Shown piece by piece: positions 1,100 through 8,435 of a stretch of 17,093 bases of DNA. The notes beneath the pieces are model-generated. The model searched no databases, had not been told where the DNA came from, and saw nothing but the letters and a program-made list of their open reading frames with translations. Location: NCBI GenBank assembly GCA_902797565.1, contig CADBTO010000069.1, forward strand, positions 1 through 17,093, read 5' to 3'. The position numbers were made by a program, and so were the translations under genes. How positions within the stretch are numbered: position 1 is the first letter of the stretch; each line of letters starts with the position of its first letter. Origin of the DNA: an uncultured Lachnospiraceae bacterium (GTDB taxonomy: Bacteria > Bacillota > Clostridia > Lachnospirales > Lachnospiraceae).

Positions 1100-1963
1100 T
1101 CAAGCTTTGCCGTCAGAACCGAAGAGCAGGATCTTCTCCTTCACTTTGTCCTGGATTGCCTGTACGCCAGGTGCGAGCACTTTCCGCGGATCAAAGCCCT
1201 TGCCGACTTTGTCTTTGCCAGCTTCGATATACTCGCGGGTTGCAGCCGTGAAGACCAGCTGGCACTCGGTGTTGACATTGATCTTGGAAACGCCGAGCGT
1301 GATCGCGCGCTTCACCTGCTCATCCGGGATGCCTGTGCCGCCGTGGAGCACGAGAGGCATTGTTCCGGTCTTCTCCTGGATCTTCTCCAGTACGTCAAAC
1401 TGAAGGCCAGCCCAGTTTTCCGGATATACGCCATGGATATTTCCGATCCCTGCAGCGAGCATATCGATCCCCAGATCCGCGATCTGCTTGCACTCATCCG
1501 GATCTGCGCACTCGCCCATTCCAACAACGCCATCTTCTTCGCCGCCGATTGCGCCAACTTCTGCCTCAATGGACATGCCATTGTCATGCGCAAGTTTCAC
1601 CAGCTCCTTCGTCTTTTCAATATTCTCCGCAATATCGTAGGAAGAACCGTCGAACATAATGGAGGTGAAGCCTGCAGCAACGCATTCTTTGGAAGCTTCA
1701 TAAGTCCCATGATCCAAATGTAATGCGATCGGCACCGTAATCCCGAGATCTGCGTCCATAGCCTTGACCATTGCAGCGACCGTCTTAAAGCCGCACATAT
1801 ACTTCCCTGCACCCGCAGACACGCCGAGGATTGCAGGCGAATTCATTTCCTGTGCGGTAAGCAGGATTGCCTTGGTCCATTCCAGGTTGTTGATGTTGAA
1901 CTGGCCCACGCCATAGTGTCCAGCCTTTGCTTTGTCGAGCATTTCTTTTGCAGATACTAACAT
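1100..1963 (-). CDS. fba: Class II fructose-bisphosphate aldolase
   Basis: Zinc-dependent class II aldolase that reversibly cleaves fructose 1,6-bisphosphate into dihydroxyacetone phosphate and glyceraldehyde 3-phosphate in glycolysis and gluconeogenesis. The 287-residue product is the normal length for the Firmicute type. Visible motifs: HLDHG (82-86; Asp84 catalytic, His85 a metal ligand), EAEVGAIGGEEDG (133-145, Glu134 region), GNIHGVY with metal ligand His178, and VLHGGTGIPDEQ with His207 and the phosphate-binding GGTG. The frame is open upstream, but ATG 1963 is the right start: it matches the family N-terminus (LVSAKEMLDKA) and has AGGGAG 9 nt upstream. Tagatose-bisphosphate aldolases (GatY/KbaY) are close relatives; a stand-alone gene with a strong promoter favours the glycolytic enzyme. 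It has its own near-consensus promoter (2021-2049) and terminator (994-1021), so it is a monocistronic unit behind the whiA/HPr operon. Confidence 0.95.
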   Translation of the reverse strand: MLVSAKEMLDKAKAGHYGVGQFNINNLEWTKAILLTAQEMNSPAILGVSAGAGKYMCGFKTVAAMVKAMDADLGITVPIALHLDHGTYEASKECVAAGFTSIMFDGSSYDIAENIEKTKELVKLAHDNGMSIEAEVGAIGGEEDGVVGMGECADPDECKQIADLGIDMLAAGIGNIHGVYPENWAGLQFDVLEKIQEKTGTMPLVLHGGTGIPDEQVKRAITLGVSKINVNTECQLVFTAATREYIEAGKDKVGKGFDPRKVLAPGVQAIQDKVKEKILLFGSDGKA

Positions 1964-1999
1964 ACTCTTTTTCTCCCTTCGAAAAATGAAAATACTGCT

Positions 2000-2012
2000 G
2001 GCGGAACCCGCC
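2000..2012 (-). promoter_or_regulatory. Small hairpin at the predicted 5' end of the fba mRNA
   Basis: GGCGG (2000-2004) and CCGCC (2008-2012) form a 5-bp GC stem with a 3-nt loop. The transcription start predicted from the promoter at 2021-2049 is about 2013-2014, so the hairpin would sit at the extreme 5' end of the transcript, about 30 nt before the ribosome binding site. Such placements are known to protect highly expressed mRNAs from 5' decay; that role here is inference. Confidence 0.4.
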
Positions 2013-2020
2013 GATACCCC

Positions 2021-2049
2021 ATTATATATCAAAGAAAAAAATTATGCAA
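2021..2049 (-). promoter_or_regulatory. Sigma-70/SigA-type promoter of fba
   Basis: On the minus strand: TTGCAT (2044-2049), a 17-bp AT-rich spacer, then a perfect TATAAT (2021-2026). The -35 hexamer overlaps the stop codon of the upstream diacylglycerol kinase-like gene (2042-2044). This gives an fba leader of about 50 nt. Confidence 0.8.
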
Positions 2050-2935
2050 TAGCAATCCGCAATGCGCGGGGAATATTTTTTATCCGGGCGACTTTGTGCT
2101 TCCCGCCAAATTCCCCGTCCACGGTATAGGGGATTTCACTCGCGCTGATGATCCGCAGTTCCTTTGTCTGGAAGGTGAGAACCAGGTCAGACTCTGGGGA
2201 AACCCCGGTCAGAGCCGCAATAATCTCTGAGAGTTCGAGCGGATTTTCCGGCGTGCGGATCAGCGTCACTTCAAACAGCCCGTCTGACAGGGATATATCA
2301 CCGGATATGATGCCCTGGATGCCGCCGACCGAGTTCGAATTGGTGACCATACCATAGATAAATGCGTCATAGATGGTATTCCCATCATATTCCACCTGCA
2401 GCATATAGGAAGAGGATGGAATGTCTTTGAGTGTTTTGAGCGCATGCAGGACATAGGCAGTATGACCCAGGATATTTTTCAGTTCCTGCGGCGTCTGGTA
2501 GGAAACATCTGTGAAGAGGCCGAATGCCGCCACATAGATAAAATAGTCCTCGTTCAGGCTGCCCATATCGAGCGCGGAAAGATTCTTGCCGCAGGCAATT
2601 TTTCCAGCGCCCACCAGATCGGAAGGGATGCCGACAGACTCGGCGTAATCATTGGTGGAACCACAGGGAATATAGCCGATTTCGGTCTGAAGGCCCTGTT
2701 TCAGCAGTCCCGTGGCAACTTCATCGAGCGTGCCATCTCCGCCTGCACAGATAATCCGATCAAATTCCCTGCCGCGCGCTTCCGCGATTTCACAGGCATC
2801 TCCACGCGCCTGGGTCGGCCGGACCGTGACGTCAAACCCCTGTTTTACGAACAGGTCCAGGAGGTCTGAGAGAACCGGTTTGATGGCAGAAGTGCCGGAC
2901 ATCGGGTTGTATATAAAGAGTAGTTTTCTGGACAT
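2042..2935 (-). CDS. Diacylglycerol kinase-family lipid kinase (YegS/DagK-like)
   Basis: 297-residue member of the DAGK-catalytic-domain lipid kinase family (YegS/BmrU/DgkB type), which phosphorylates diacylglycerol or related lipids at the inner face of the membrane; DgkB recycles diacylglycerol released during lipoteichoic acid synthesis. Key motifs: N-terminal KLLFIYNPMSG (4-14), the nucleotide-binding GGDGTLDEV (65-73), IPCGSTNDYAES (89-100), and a C-terminal beta-rich half ending with a TVDGE motif (residues about 271-275), typical of the family. No membrane segment is evident, as expected. ATG 2935 lies 4 nt after the stop of the HPr-like gene and has no visible Shine-Dalgarno, so it is probably translated by coupling/reinitiation. 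It is the last gene of the hprK-whiA-HPr operon; fba follows from a separate promoter. Substrate (diacylglycerol, sphingosine, other lipid) cannot be told from sequence. Confidence 0.88.
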   Translation of the reverse strand: MSRKLLFIYNPMSGTSAIKPVLSDLLDLFVKQGFDVTVRPTQARGDACEIAEARGREFDRIICAGGDGTLDEVATGLLKQGLQTEIGYIPCGSTNDYAESVGIPSDLVGAGKIACGKNLSALDMGSLNEDYFIYVAAFGLFTDVSYQTPQELKNILGHTAYVLHALKTLKDIPSSSYMLQVEYDGNTIYDAFIYGMVTNSNSVGGIQGIISGDISLSDGLFEVTLIRTPENPLELSEIIAALTGVSPESDLVLTFQTKELRIISASEIPYTVDGEFGGKHKVARIKNIPRALRIAIA

Positions 2936-2939
2936 TGTG

Positions 2940-3188
2940 TTAAGCCGTCAAAAAATGTTCCAGTGCTGCAACTGCCTTTTCCTCGTCTTCACCTTCCACA
3001 TCAATGGTGACCGTTTCGCCCTGTTCAAAAACCGTGCTCATCATGCCCATAATGCTTTTGCCGTTGACTTTCCGGGCATTGACAACAAAGTACACACGGC
3101 TGGTGAACTTGTTGGCAAGCTGCACCAACTGGGCAATGGGGGTTGCCTCCATGTTGGTGGAGGTGTGGATCGTTACATCTCGTTTCAT
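2940..3188 (-). CDS. HPr-family protein lacking the PTS phospho-histidine (Crh-like)
   Basis: 82-residue protein with a full-length HPr fold by alignment, but not a PTS phosphocarrier by its active site. Where HPr has G-[IL]-H15-A-R17-P, this protein reads N-M-E14-A-T16-P: both the phospho-acceptor His and the essential Arg are replaced (Glu and Thr). The regulatory site is intact: KSIMGMMS (44-51) carries the serine equivalent to Ser46, the target of HPr kinase/phosphorylase, whose gene lies about 4 kb upstream in the same gene series. In Bacillus the HPr paralogue Crh has Gln at position 15, keeps Ser46, and also follows whiA (yvcL), so position and residues both suggest a Crh-like role as CcpA cofactor or metabolic regulator. 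ATG 3188 has AAGGAG 8 nt upstream; whiA ends 17 nt earlier and the DAG kinase-like gene starts 4 nt after. A Glu at this site could mimic permanent phosphorylation; that is inference. Confidence 0.9.
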   Translation of the reverse strand: MKRDVTIHTSTNMEATPIAQLVQLANKFTSRVYFVVNARKVNGKSIMGMMSTVFEQGETVTIDVEGEDEEKAVAALEHFLTA

Positions 3189-3205
3189 GGGAAAAACTCC
3201 TTATT

Positions 3206-4036
3206 TCATTCAATAATTTCTGACGCTATTTTTTCCAGCTTCCGGAAACGGTGGTTCATACCGCTTTTCCCGACAGGCGGGGAGCAGCGCTGGCAGAGCT
3301 CCGATAATGGCAGTTGGGGATAGGTAAGCCGCAGGTCTGCAGCCTCCCGCAGTCCCCTTGGCAGCTTGCCAAGCCCGATGGTCCGCTGGATTTTTTCAAT
3401 ATCCCGTACCTGCCGCAGGGATGCATCGATGGTCTTTTCGATGTTTGCCGCTTCGCAGTTCACCTTCCGGTTTACGGAATTTCGCATATCTTTAATAATT
3501 CGAATATTTTCAAATGCTATGACCGCTTTGGAAGCCCCCATCCGTCCGAGTGTCTCCACAATCTGATCGGCTTCCTTGATGTAGGCAACATAGCGTCCTT
3601 TGCGTTCCATAATTTTGGGACGCGCCATTTCTGCTTCCATTGCCTGAGCGGCCCATTCTGCTGTCCGGGCACTCTGGCAGACAATCTCCAGATGGTAGGA
3701 TTTTTCCGGATCGCTCATAGATCCGGCAGCCAGGTATGCACCGCGCAGATACGCGCGTTTCATTTCCTCATCCATAGGCGGACCGGTCAGATGGGACAGG
3801 GAAATGTCCCGGTGGTGTGGAAGGCCCGCATACTGTGCTTTCAGTGTATCGGCACTCCCGCGGATGTGTCCGCTGTGCCCGATCCGGAAACTGCTGAGCG
3901 CGGAAAGCTGGGAAGACAGGCAGTCATCGTCTATGGGAACAATCTTGGAGAGTTCCGCACGGACACGCCGGGAAAAGGACAGATCCGCCGCACTACTTGC
4001 CTTGTTTTCTGTCTTTGTCAATGTCTCTGTGTTCAA
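3206..4036 (-). CDS. whiA: WhiA sporulation/cell-division regulator homologue, short N-terminus
   Basis: DNA-binding WhiA-family protein: degenerate LAGLIDADG homing-endonuclease fold followed by a helix-turn-helix. In Bacillus WhiA (YvcL) affects cell division and chromosome segregation. Visible: KRAYLRGAYLAAGSMSDPEK (93-112), FENIRIIKDMRNSVNRKVNC (175-194), EKTIDASLRQVRDIEKIQ (200-217) and the C-terminal HTH signature PPVGKSGMNHRFRKLEKIA (253-271). At 276 residues it is shorter than the usual 305-320: only about 75 residues separate the N-terminal SFSRRVRAEL from RAYLRGA, against roughly 120 in B. subtilis, so much of the first LAGLIDADG half is missing. The start is uncertain. TTG 4036 is in frame, with AGGAG 13 nt upstream, and overlaps the end of rapZ by 44 nt; a second TTG at 4021 is possible. 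The yvcK gene that normally lies between rapZ and whiA is absent. Confidence 0.9.
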   Translation of the reverse strand: MNTETLTKTENKASSAADLSFSRRVRAELSKIVPIDDDCLSSQLSALSSFRIGHSGHIRGSADTLKAQYAGLPHHRDISLSHLTGPPMDEEMKRAYLRGAYLAAGSMSDPEKSYHLEIVCQSARTAEWAAQAMEAEMARPKIMERKGRYVAYIKEADQIVETLGRMGASKAVIAFENIRIIKDMRNSVNRKVNCEAANIEKTIDASLRQVRDIEKIQRTIGLGKLPRGLREAADLRLTYPQLPLSELCQRCSPPVGKSGMNHRFRKLEKIASEIIE

Positions 4037-4871
4037 TTTTCAAACCATACTCCTGTTTTGCGGAAAGCCGTCCGTAAATTTCGTTGGCAATGGCTACTGA
4101 ACGGTGTTTTCCGCCCGTGCAGCCAAAGCAGATCACCAGTGAATTTTTGCCCTCTTTGATATATTGGGGGATCAAAAAATCAATCAACGGCATCAGCCGT
4201 TCGATAAATGTATCACCATCGCTGCCCTGGAAGACATATTCCCGGATGAGCGGGTCGTTTCCGGTTTTTGCGCGCAGCCGTTCCACATAATAGGGATTTG
4301 GCAGGAAACGCACATCAAAAACCAGGTCTCCATCTGCGGGAATTCCATATTTATAGCCGAATGACAGCACGGTAACGTAGATGGACTTGAAATCCGCAGT
4401 GTCTGCCGTAAAGCGCCGCGCCAGTTCTGCGCGCAGATCTTTGGTCAGAAGATGGGACGTGTCGATCACAAGATCCGCTTTTTCCCGAAGCCACTGCATC
4501 TGCTTCCGTTCCCGCCGGATGCCTTCTTCAATCCGGTCGCCCTTTGCCAGGGGCGGTGTTCGCCTTGTCTCTTTGTATCGTTTGAGGAGCACATCATCGG
4601 AAGCGTCCAGGAACAGGATATCGACGGGTTTCCCGTCCGATTCCAGTTCGGATAGTACATCTGCCAGAGAAGAGATGGACGCACCGCTTCGGATATCAAT
4701 CCCTACGGCAACCCGCTGCATCTCTTTTTCCGCGCTGACCGCTAGTTCCACAAAAGATTTGAGGAGTGCGACGGGCAGGTTATCCACGCAGTGGTAATGC
4801 AAGTCCTCCAGGACTTTGAATGCCTGGTGTTTTCCGGCACCGGACATGCCTGTCAAGATGAGAAGTCGCAT
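3993..4871 (-). CDS. rapZ: RapZ/YvcJ-family nucleotide-binding protein with altered Walker A
   Basis: 292-residue RapZ (YvcJ) family protein. In E. coli RapZ binds the GlmZ/GlmY small RNAs to control glucosamine-6-phosphate synthase; in B. subtilis YvcJ is an ATP/GTP-binding protein with a role in competence. Family landmarks: CVDNLPVALL (28-37), GIDIRSG (57-63), ILFLDASDDVLLKRYKETRR (85-104), SFGYKYGIPADGDLVFDVRF (170-189), FLPNPYY (189-195) and the C-terminal GCTGGKHRSV (250-259). The P-loop reads GMSGAGKH (8-15): the Ser/Thr that coordinates Mg in a normal Walker A is His (codon CAC at 4827-4829), and the usual RRxHPL is RRTPPL (103-108). ATG 4871 follows the murB stop by 3 nt, with GGGAG 11 nt upstream inside murB. 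Its 3' end overlaps whiA. Identification is secure; nucleotide binding by this copy is doubtful. Confidence 0.92.
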   Translation of the reverse strand: MRLLILTGMSGAGKHQAFKVLEDLHYHCVDNLPVALLKSFVELAVSAEKEMQRVAVGIDIRSGASISSLADVLSELESDGKPVDILFLDASDDVLLKRYKETRRTPPLAKGDRIEEGIRRERKQMQWLREKADLVIDTSHLLTKDLRAELARRFTADTADFKSIYVTVLSFGYKYGIPADGDLVFDVRFLPNPYYVERLRAKTGNDPLIREYVFQGSDGDTFIERLMPLIDFLIPQYIKEGKNSLVICFGCTGGKHRSVAIANEIYGRLSAKQEYGLKIEHRDIDKDRKQGK

Positions 4872-7373: not shown

Positions 7374-8324
7374 TTAATGGCGCGAAGCCTTGTTGATGTT
7401 GTCCATGACACGGCGGGTCAGCTCTTCGGCGGCATTGTAGCCCATCTTCTTCTGCCTGTGGTTGACGGCGGCAGTCTCGCAGATCACCGCAAGGTTCCGT
7501 CCGGGACGGATTGGCAGGGAATGGCAGACCACATTGGTGCCCAGAATTTCCATAAATTCATCAACGAGCCCCATCCGGTCATATTCCGTTTCGCGTTTCC
7601 AGTCTTCCAGTTTGATGACAAAATCAATGGTCTGGTTGTCCTTCACGCATTCCACGCCGAACAGGCTCTTCACATCAATGATTCCGATTCCGCGCAGTTC
7701 GATGAGGTGCCTTGTGACCGCGGAAGCGGTGCCGAGAAGCCGGTCTTTTCCAATTTTTCGGATTTCAACAACATCGTCCGCTACCAGACGATGTCCGCGG
7801 CGCACCAGTTCGAGCGCCGCTTCGCTTTTTCCGATCCCGCTTTCCCCGGTGATCAGCAGGCCCTCACCATAAACATCCACCAGGACACCATGGATTGTGG
7901 TGGTTGGTGCTAGTTCGAAGGTCAGGATGGAGATCAGTTCCGCCATAAATTCCGAGGTGGCCCGTCCGGTTTGAAGAATCGGCGTGCCTGCCTTCGTTGC
8001 CGCAGCAATAAATTGCTCCTCCGGTTCCAGATTCCGGCAGATGATGACAGCGGGAATCTGGAAGGACAGGAGTTTTTCATAGATCGCTGCACGCTCCTGT
8101 TTCGTTTTTTTACTGTGGAGATACGCGTATTCAACCATACCGATGAGTTCGATGCGTTTCTCGTCGAAATGCTCATAGAACCCTTCCAGCTGTAAAGCCG
8201 GACGGTTGATATCGGGAACATAGACAACGGATTCTTCCAGATTCAGCAGTGGGGTGCAGTTCTTCAGCCCCAGCCTTTCCGCAATGACGGAGATGTTTGC
8301 CCCATCGATCTTTTTTTCTGACAT
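7374..8324 (-). CDS. hprK: HPr kinase/phosphorylase
   Basis: Bifunctional HprK/P phosphorylates HPr (and Crh) on Ser46 with ATP or pyrophosphate and dephosphorylates it, the sensor step of carbon catabolite control in Firmicutes; fructose 1,6-bisphosphate stimulates the kinase. The 316-residue product has an N-terminal domain (about 1-130) and a C-terminal kinase domain with IHGVLVDVYGEGLLITGE (144-161), P-loop GESGIGKS (160-167), HRLVADDVVEIRK (178-190) and the HprK signature GTASAVTRHLIELRGIGIID (198-217) followed by VKSLFG, then LEDW (239-242). ATG 8324 is chosen over upstream in-frame codons because AGAGGAG is 4 nt before it and MSEKKIDGANISVIAERLGL fits the family. uvrC ends 170 bp upstream at a strong terminator, so hprK should start a transcription unit; I found no convincing promoter there, but a 7-bp inverted repeat lies in the leader. 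Its likely substrate in this window is the Crh-like protein at 2940-3188. Confidence 0.96.
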   Translation of the reverse strand: MSEKKIDGANISVIAERLGLKNCTPLLNLEESVVYVPDINRPALQLEGFYEHFDEKRIELIGMVEYAYLHSKKTKQERAAIYEKLLSFQIPAVIICRNLEPEEQFIAAATKAGTPILQTGRATSEFMAELISILTFELAPTTTIHGVLVDVYGEGLLITGESGIGKSEAALELVRRGHRLVADDVVEIRKIGKDRLLGTASAVTRHLIELRGIGIIDVKSLFGVECVKDNQTIDFVIKLEDWKRETEYDRMGLVDEFMEILGTNVVCHSLPIRPGRNLAVICETAAVNHRQKKMGYNAAEELTRRVMDNINKASRH

Positions 8325-8358
8325 TCGGCTCCTCTCGATTCCTGTAATTGTGTGTATC

Positions 8359-8377
8359 GGGAACGATGTCCGTTCCC
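8359..8377 (-). promoter_or_regulatory. Perfect inverted repeat in the hprK leader
   Basis: GGGAACG (8359-8365) and CGTTCCC (8371-8377) are perfectly complementary around a 5-nt spacer, 35 bp upstream of the hprK start. It has no U-tract on either strand, so it is not a terminator; it could be an operator or a leader RNA hairpin. Confidence 0.5.
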
Positions 8378-8435
8378 TAAAAACCGCAAATTTCACTGCT
8401 ATCATTTTACTGAATTCTGCTGGAATTTGATATAT

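Follow-up and report, generated by a model that had tools for sequence, protein, structure and literature searches.

The Crh-like gene and its neighbourhood

The analysed stretch of DNA (the window; 17,093 nucleotides from an uncultured Lachnospiraceae bacterium) carries on its minus strand a gene for a Crh-like protein of 82 amino acids (2940..3188), which is preceded by a likely ribosome-binding site, AAGGAG (3197..3202, minus strand), and whose translation reads ...TSTNMEATPIAQLVQ...KVNGKSIMGMMS... The Pfam PTS-HPr domain (PF00381) spans the whole protein (E 1.3e-24; 86.4 bits, cut-off 23), and the HPr family model TIGR01003, which is of subfamily level, is passed as well (64.4 bits vs a cut-off of 47.9). 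By bits, the top NCBIfam match is the Crh equivalog NF010354/PRK13782, whose cut-off of 123 is not reached (74.1 bits); we take this to be the Crh model; its NCBIfam label is HPr family phosphocarrier protein. An AlphaFold2 model of the protein has an HPr-like fold (mean pLDDT 91.6), and in a Foldseek search against the PDB ranks 1 to 41 are all HPr, Crh or NPr, as single chains or within complexes; the nearest solved chains by sequence are HPr of T. tengcongensis (3le1, 3le5; organism according to the titles) and B. subtilis Crh.

Codons and domain match confirm the residues named in the original prediction. Glu14 (codon GAG, 3147..3149) and Thr16 (ACC, 3141..3143) occupy the positions of His15 and Arg17 of PTS HPr, so that the catalytic pair is gone, and the Ser46-type region, KSIMGMMS, is intact; its Ser45 (AGC, 3054..3056; all three codons on the minus strand) is the predicted target of HPr(Ser) kinase/phosphorylase (HprK). 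With the PTS phosphocarrier HPr the protein thus shares the fold, the Pfam family and the Ser46 regulatory site, but it lacks the catalytic His15 and here also Arg17. At HPr position 21, many members of the window's subclade (P0003-P0037) carry a His (IAHLVQ), and the window's protein has Gln (residue 20, 3129-3131).

All neighbouring genes described here lie on the minus strand. The stop of whiA (3206..4036; TIGR00647 2e-64) is located 17 nt ahead of the start of the Crh-like gene, and rapZ (3993..4871; NF003828 1.3e-101) lies upstream of whiA. Further upstream follow what we take to be murB and an M18 aminopeptidase gene, then hprK, and then presumably uvrC. The claim that hprK is found a few genes upstream is therefore correct (7374..8405; TIGR00679 3.6e-106), and the P-loop of its product, GESGIGKS, is intact. 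On the other side, a gene for a YegS-type lipid kinase (2042..2935; TIGR00147 3.5e-53) starts 4 nt past the stop of the Crh-like gene and is followed by a gene for a class II fructose-bisphosphate aldolase (1100..2032; TIGR01859 3.7e-110), so that an enzyme acting on fructose-1,6-bisphosphate (FBP) is encoded two genes downstream. At named-record loci (the best 80 of 546 relatives), whiA is found at most 400 nt upstream of the Crh-like gene in all 80, hprK is present on 44 of the 80, several of which are short, and the aldolase at 34 of the 80, some of which end at contig edges.

Bacillus subtilis Crh likewise has the HPr fold, no His15, a Ser46 site and a gene directly after whiA. It differs from the Crh-like family in carrying Gln at position 15, where the family has Glu or Asp (Gln in 3/118 proteins), and in several further respects: Arg17 is lost in the window's subclade, the window's protein scores below the Crh equivalog cut-off, and a search of 150 genomes from the window's family found no CcpA over the cut-off. 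In addition, hprK lies near the Crh-like gene, whereas B. subtilis hprK presumably lies elsewhere and not near crh. In the window rapZ directly precedes whiA with no glmR between, in contrast to the B. subtilis gene order glmR-whiA-crh (PMC10714963, as given in the part of the paper available to us).

Conservation and origin of the acidic position

A protein search yielded 272 homologues, of which the 120 listed were aligned with the query. Among these 121 rows, 109 have Glu at HPr position 15, position 17 is mainly Arg (61 rows) or Thr (54), and all 121 have Ser at the Ser46 equivalent. Some homologues, such as that of Lachnospiraceae bacterium C10, already bear the name "catabolite repression HPr-like protein" from their sources, and the family thus already sits in the databases. 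Names of this kind, together with record titles, are the basis on which the family is called Lachnospiraceae; the gene is also present in records of Roseburia inulinivorans and Blautia hansenii.

For a census of the family we used 150 genomes including that of the window. A whiA gene was found in 142; for 130 of the 141 apart from the window's genome, we read the DNA that follows it (30 loci and 100 stretches). An HPr domain is encoded directly after whiA at 118 of these 130 loci and absent from the remaining 12. Position 15 of the 118 proteins is Glu in 94, Asp in 12, Gln in 3, Gly in 3, Ala in 2 and Ser, Cys, Asn or Thr in one each, and is thus acidic in 106 and non-acidic in 12; His does not occur. 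Position 17 is Arg in 102, Thr in 8 and another residue in 8, and the HprK serine is present in 118/118. The last 11 whiA loci of the family (nine read as separate stretches, two via other loci) comprise nine with an HPr domain, none of which has His at position 15 by inspection, one that consists of a contig end only (L424) and one with no match (L421). Position 15 ranks 34th in conservation among 78 columns and is less strict than Ser46, which together with the SIMGMM helix is nearly invariant in the family.

Ser46 in 118/118 and His in 0/118 proteins support the original prediction of a PTS-disconnected, Crh-type and whiA-linked protein with its HprK site kept. Close relatives with His15 at the same locus had been named there as a sign of sequencing error or recent decay, and none was seen, neither among the 118 proteins nor at the nine additional loci. 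The branch of the window's protein is fairly long (0.41 vs a median of 0.21) and its assembly is only 81% complete, as one might expect of a decaying or mis-sequenced HPr; the same substitution is, however, common across the family and combined with an invariant Ser46, which rules this explanation out for practical purposes.

The wider class was sampled with 128 genomes, the window's included, of which 123 contain whiA; 110 whiA loci were read (30 loci and 80 stretches), and 107 are left after setting aside three from the window's own family. An HPr gene follows whiA at only 15 of the 107, with His (5), Gln (6), Thr, Tyr, Asn or Lys (1 each) at position 15. In the class, HPr thus follows whiA only sporadically, with His15 in some of the linked copies and varied residues in the others; among the 110 class loci read, acidic residues at position 15 were confined to the window's family.

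The original prediction also considered an independent origin, on which the phylogenetic evidence is divided. In a tree calculated without HPr columns 15-17 (76 usable columns), the family proteins are split from His15 HPrs, from the whiA-linked proteins of the class and from Bacillus Crh (SH-aLRT 99), and the same split was recovered (SH-aLRT 98) with a subset of 67 rows, obtained by removing five long-branch rows and thinning the rest to one in three family rows and one in two His15 rows. In AU tests, however, neither a tree holding the family and Bacillus Crh together (p 0.678; 67-row subset) nor one in which Crh and all whiA-linked class proteins without His join the family (p 0.208) was rejected. 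Because of this and of the small number of columns, an origin independent of Bacillus Crh is plausible rather than established.

Family genomes without enzyme I

The genome of the window contains five PF00381 matches, the Crh-like protein included. One of the others (L001) combines His15 (GLHLRPAG) with the serine motif CKSILS, a second (L003) has His15 (GIHARPA) and Arg at the Ser46 position and is ended by the contig edge, a third (L004) is without the histidine region, and the last (L005) is again ended by a contig edge. The possibility that this genome has no HPr is ruled out by the two His15 proteins; the corresponding suggestion of the original prediction, a lineage without a true HPr, thus fails here and applies to 11 further family genomes described below. 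Regarding the search for enzyme I and CcpA that had been proposed along with it, enzyme I was not found in the window's genome with two models (assembly 81% complete, 428 contigs), and no CcpA over the cut-off was found among the candidates scored in the 150 family genomes. The gene beside L003 we take to be PTS permease-like. Since the assembly is 81% complete and a His15 HPr adjoins this gene, the missing enzyme I is most simply put down to the incomplete assembly.

L003 (1-204, minus strand), with His15 kept and Arg (KRILG) in place of Ser46, is the mirror image of the Crh-like protein. L004 (804-1034, minus strand), whose gene sits between what we presume to be thiI-like and mtaB-like genes, belongs with L292-L297, L300 and L302 to a second family of small His-less HPr-like proteins with the motif K[SA]FVN...IDAKSIMGIFSLDLS; the N-terminal phosphohistidine region is absent and the Ser46 motif is kept, and these proteins may be a further HprK target.

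Seventeen of the 150 family genomes, the window's included, lack enzyme I, as do 12 of the 125 genomes of good quality (at least 90% complete, at most 5% contamination). A second enzyme I model, which reached 574 to 607 bits in three comparison genomes, gave only short matches far below the cut-off in eight and none in three of 11 of these 12 genomes (G044 left out). The enzyme I matches below the cut-off lie in reading frames roughly 800 to 920 aa long, which we infer to be PPDK-like. A gene for HprK is present in 145/150 family genomes and kept in 11 of the 12 without enzyme I, the HprK catalytic motifs being intact in the ten that were read; the exception, G044, is without enzyme I, hprK and whiA.

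The other 11 enzyme-I-less genomes contain 25 HPr-domain matches, all of which were read, and His at position 15 occurs in none of them. About ten of the 25 are of the small type without the N-terminal site, and two (L283 and the whiA-linked L287) have His at position 17 instead. A Crh-like protein follows whiA in 10 of the 11 genomes, with Glu in eight, Ala in one, Gly in one and Ser46 always, and in two genomes (G092 and G101) the Glu protein is the sole HPr-domain protein. Of the 133 genomes with enzyme I, 95 contain the strict DNA pattern for G-x-H-A-R-P-A, compared with 0 of these 12 without it (Fisher p 1e-6, a value that is indicative only as the genomes are related). Taking the HPr readings and these counts together, loss of enzyme I goes with loss of His15 HPrs, and the pair of HprK and Ser46 stays. 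A relaxation of position 15 in the absence of enzyme I was not significant (non-acidic in 3/10 vs 9/108 proteins, Fisher p 0.065; two of the ten, from G137 and G146, come from genomes that are 81% and 68% complete). Three enzyme-I-less genomes also encode L001-like HPrs (L283, L286 and L289) in which the motif around position 15 reads GLQMHPAG, GMQVEPAG and GLDLAPAG, with no His15 and with KS[IV]LS kept.

These genomes bear on the role of the acidic residue. As carboxylates dominate at position 15 (106/118), and as there are structural studies of a His15Asp HPr (1cm2, 1cm3, 3ccd, according to the titles), one might think of Glu or Asp being phosphorylated by enzyme I to an acyl phosphate, the protein then serving as a slow side sensor of the PTS. 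We consider this very improbable, because Glu persists in 8 of 10 whiA-linked proteins from well-covered genomes that are without enzyme I, and because Arg17 is replaced by Thr in the window. The same persistence speaks against Glu being needed to keep enzyme I away in these genomes, and would leave as its role a surface for a partner or a lock on conformation. A lock of a particular kind, in which Glu15 permanently mimics His15-P so that CcpA binding is excluded and the protein does no more than titrate HprK or other partners, would be in line with the acidic preference at this position; the variation of the neighbouring Arg17 and the 12 non-acidic proteins among the 118 make it unlikely, if less so than the phosphate acceptor.

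Candidate partners and regulatory role

The NCBI CcpA model found no protein over its cut-off in any of the 150 family genomes (best score 267 vs 442 bits; up to 13 candidates scored per genome), nor in a search of 22 genomes in which every candidate was scored. In the controls, 2 of 14 genomes pass; five controls give a signal, B. subtilis and L. lactis included. At an E value of 0.001 the model had no match in G050 and a single match (7.9e-6) in G091. LacI-family matches are plentiful in many family genomes, and we aligned 33 such candidates, taken from the best one or two matches per genome read (29 of the 30 loci from the 22-genome search and four from the 150-genome search), to look for equivalents of CcpA Arg303 and Lys307, which were reportedly described by Schumacher in 2004 as contacting Ser46-P. 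Arg303, Lys307 or both are lacking in 32 of the 33, one of which (L317) is truncated at that region, and a single candidate, L334 of genome G104, has equivalents of both. L308 and L313 have Lys at both contact positions, and their genomes, G034 and G049, share the MEATP motif of the window.

From these searches a classical CcpA is unlikely to be the partner in Lachnospiraceae, because none was found over the cut-off, and judging from the residues of L334, L308 and L313 some species may have a CcpA-like partner. Repression of catabolic genes by a complex of the Ser45-P form with a divergent LacI-family regulator, on the model of Crh-P in Bacillus, would fit these three candidates, the abundance of LacI-family matches and the nearly invariant Ser46 and SIMGMM helix. 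We regard such a co-repressor role as doubtful, however, in view of the gap between 267 and 442 bits across 150 genomes, of the contact residues missing from all but one of the aligned candidates, and of G050 and G091, which with no or one weak CcpA match both still keep hprK and the Glu protein.

A target outside transcription is known from B. subtilis, where Crh in its unphosphorylated form binds methylglyoxal synthase and inhibits it, an inhibition that HprK lifts at high FBP (PMC12291648, PMC10714963 and PMC9631020, in the portions available to us). By analogy, this enzyme would be the simplest CcpA-independent target of the Crh-like protein, and a direct metabolic target of this kind, bound by the unphosphorylated form, is our leading, albeit tentative, candidate for the partner. 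The methylglyoxal synthase (MgsA) model matches 142/150 family genomes, in 113 of them over the cut-off, and all 12 genomes without enzyme I, six of which (G039, G042, G044, G091, G101 and G134) have matches that, by their E values of 4.8e-42 to 7.2e-27, apparently score below the cut-off. Co-occurrence of MgsA and the Crh-like protein was discarded as a test, as both genes are near-universal in the family and the comparison has no power. By length the MgsA matches form two groups, one reaching to about model position 141 and the other to about 123; many family genomes have two matches, and G050 has four.

Taken together, we read the gene as encoding a Crh-type regulator that is switched by HprK, blind to the PTS and marked by a maintained acidic position 15, and assign this reading a probability of about 0.7, with phosphorylation and partner inferred. 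Points that count against it include the Crh model score below the cut-off, the 12 non-acidic proteins among 118 and the rank of position 15 in conservation (34th of 78), the CcpA-like contact residues of L334, L308 and L313, the six MgsA matches apparently below the cut-off and the loss of Arg17 in the window's genome. Its sequence lacks the histidine that takes phosphate from enzyme I, from which a loss of PTS activity is deduced; the protein would be an HPr paralogue and, given the conservation of the site in 118/118 proteins and the nearby hprK, a probable HprK substrate at Ser45. According to the literature on HprK, the enzyme would phosphorylate the Crh-like protein at high fructose-1,6-bisphosphate and strip the phosphate under nutrient limitation, and the partners bound would then differ between the two forms. 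The acidic residue, a maintained feature of the family, probably serves as part of a partner surface or as a permanent block to PTS traffic and not as a phosphate acceptor. Because some relatives keep the Crh-like protein after loss of enzyme I, it probably signals carbon status by itself.

The idea of a PTS-free Crh is not new in principle, as there are precedents in Clostridia. For Clostridium (Ruminiclostridium) cellulolyticum, a species said to be without an HPr orthologue and cognate EII, Ccel_0806 has been described as Crh-like, as is the window's protein, and was modelled there with CcpA homologues (PMC3656788, as far as the accessible text goes). A Crh of Thermoanaerobacterium saccharolyticum was reported on the basis of BLAST, and in that organism CcpA matches and a PTS HPr were reported as well (PMC3526391, in the part available to us). 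In the partly accessible literature that we searched for Lachnospiraceae Crh, His15Glu HPr, PTS-free HprK and CcpA in the family, we found nothing on the Crh-like protein, and we did not meet there the family-wide acidic variant, its persistence without enzyme I and without a CcpA over the cut-off, or the absence of His15 HPrs from such genomes; for CcpA, HPr and catabolite repression in Lachnospiraceae, the top match, seen in part, gave only the Bacillus model.

The enzyme-I-less genomes that retain HprK and Ser46, and in which no His15 HPr was found, represent a natural experiment in which what the HPr family does for the PTS can be told apart from what it does with HprK, and they offer a simpler background for finding the partner of the Ser46 form. 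It is conceivable, though we would not call it likely, that HprK and the acidic-15 Crh-like protein form a module throughout the Lachnospiraceae which can work without PTS and CcpA, HprK reading the glycolytic state and the Ser-P/Ser switch acting directly on enzymes such as methylglyoxal synthase. If this were true, the best-known carbon switch of Gram-positive bacteria would outlive both its input, the PTS, and its classical output, CcpA, in a family of major gut fermenters.
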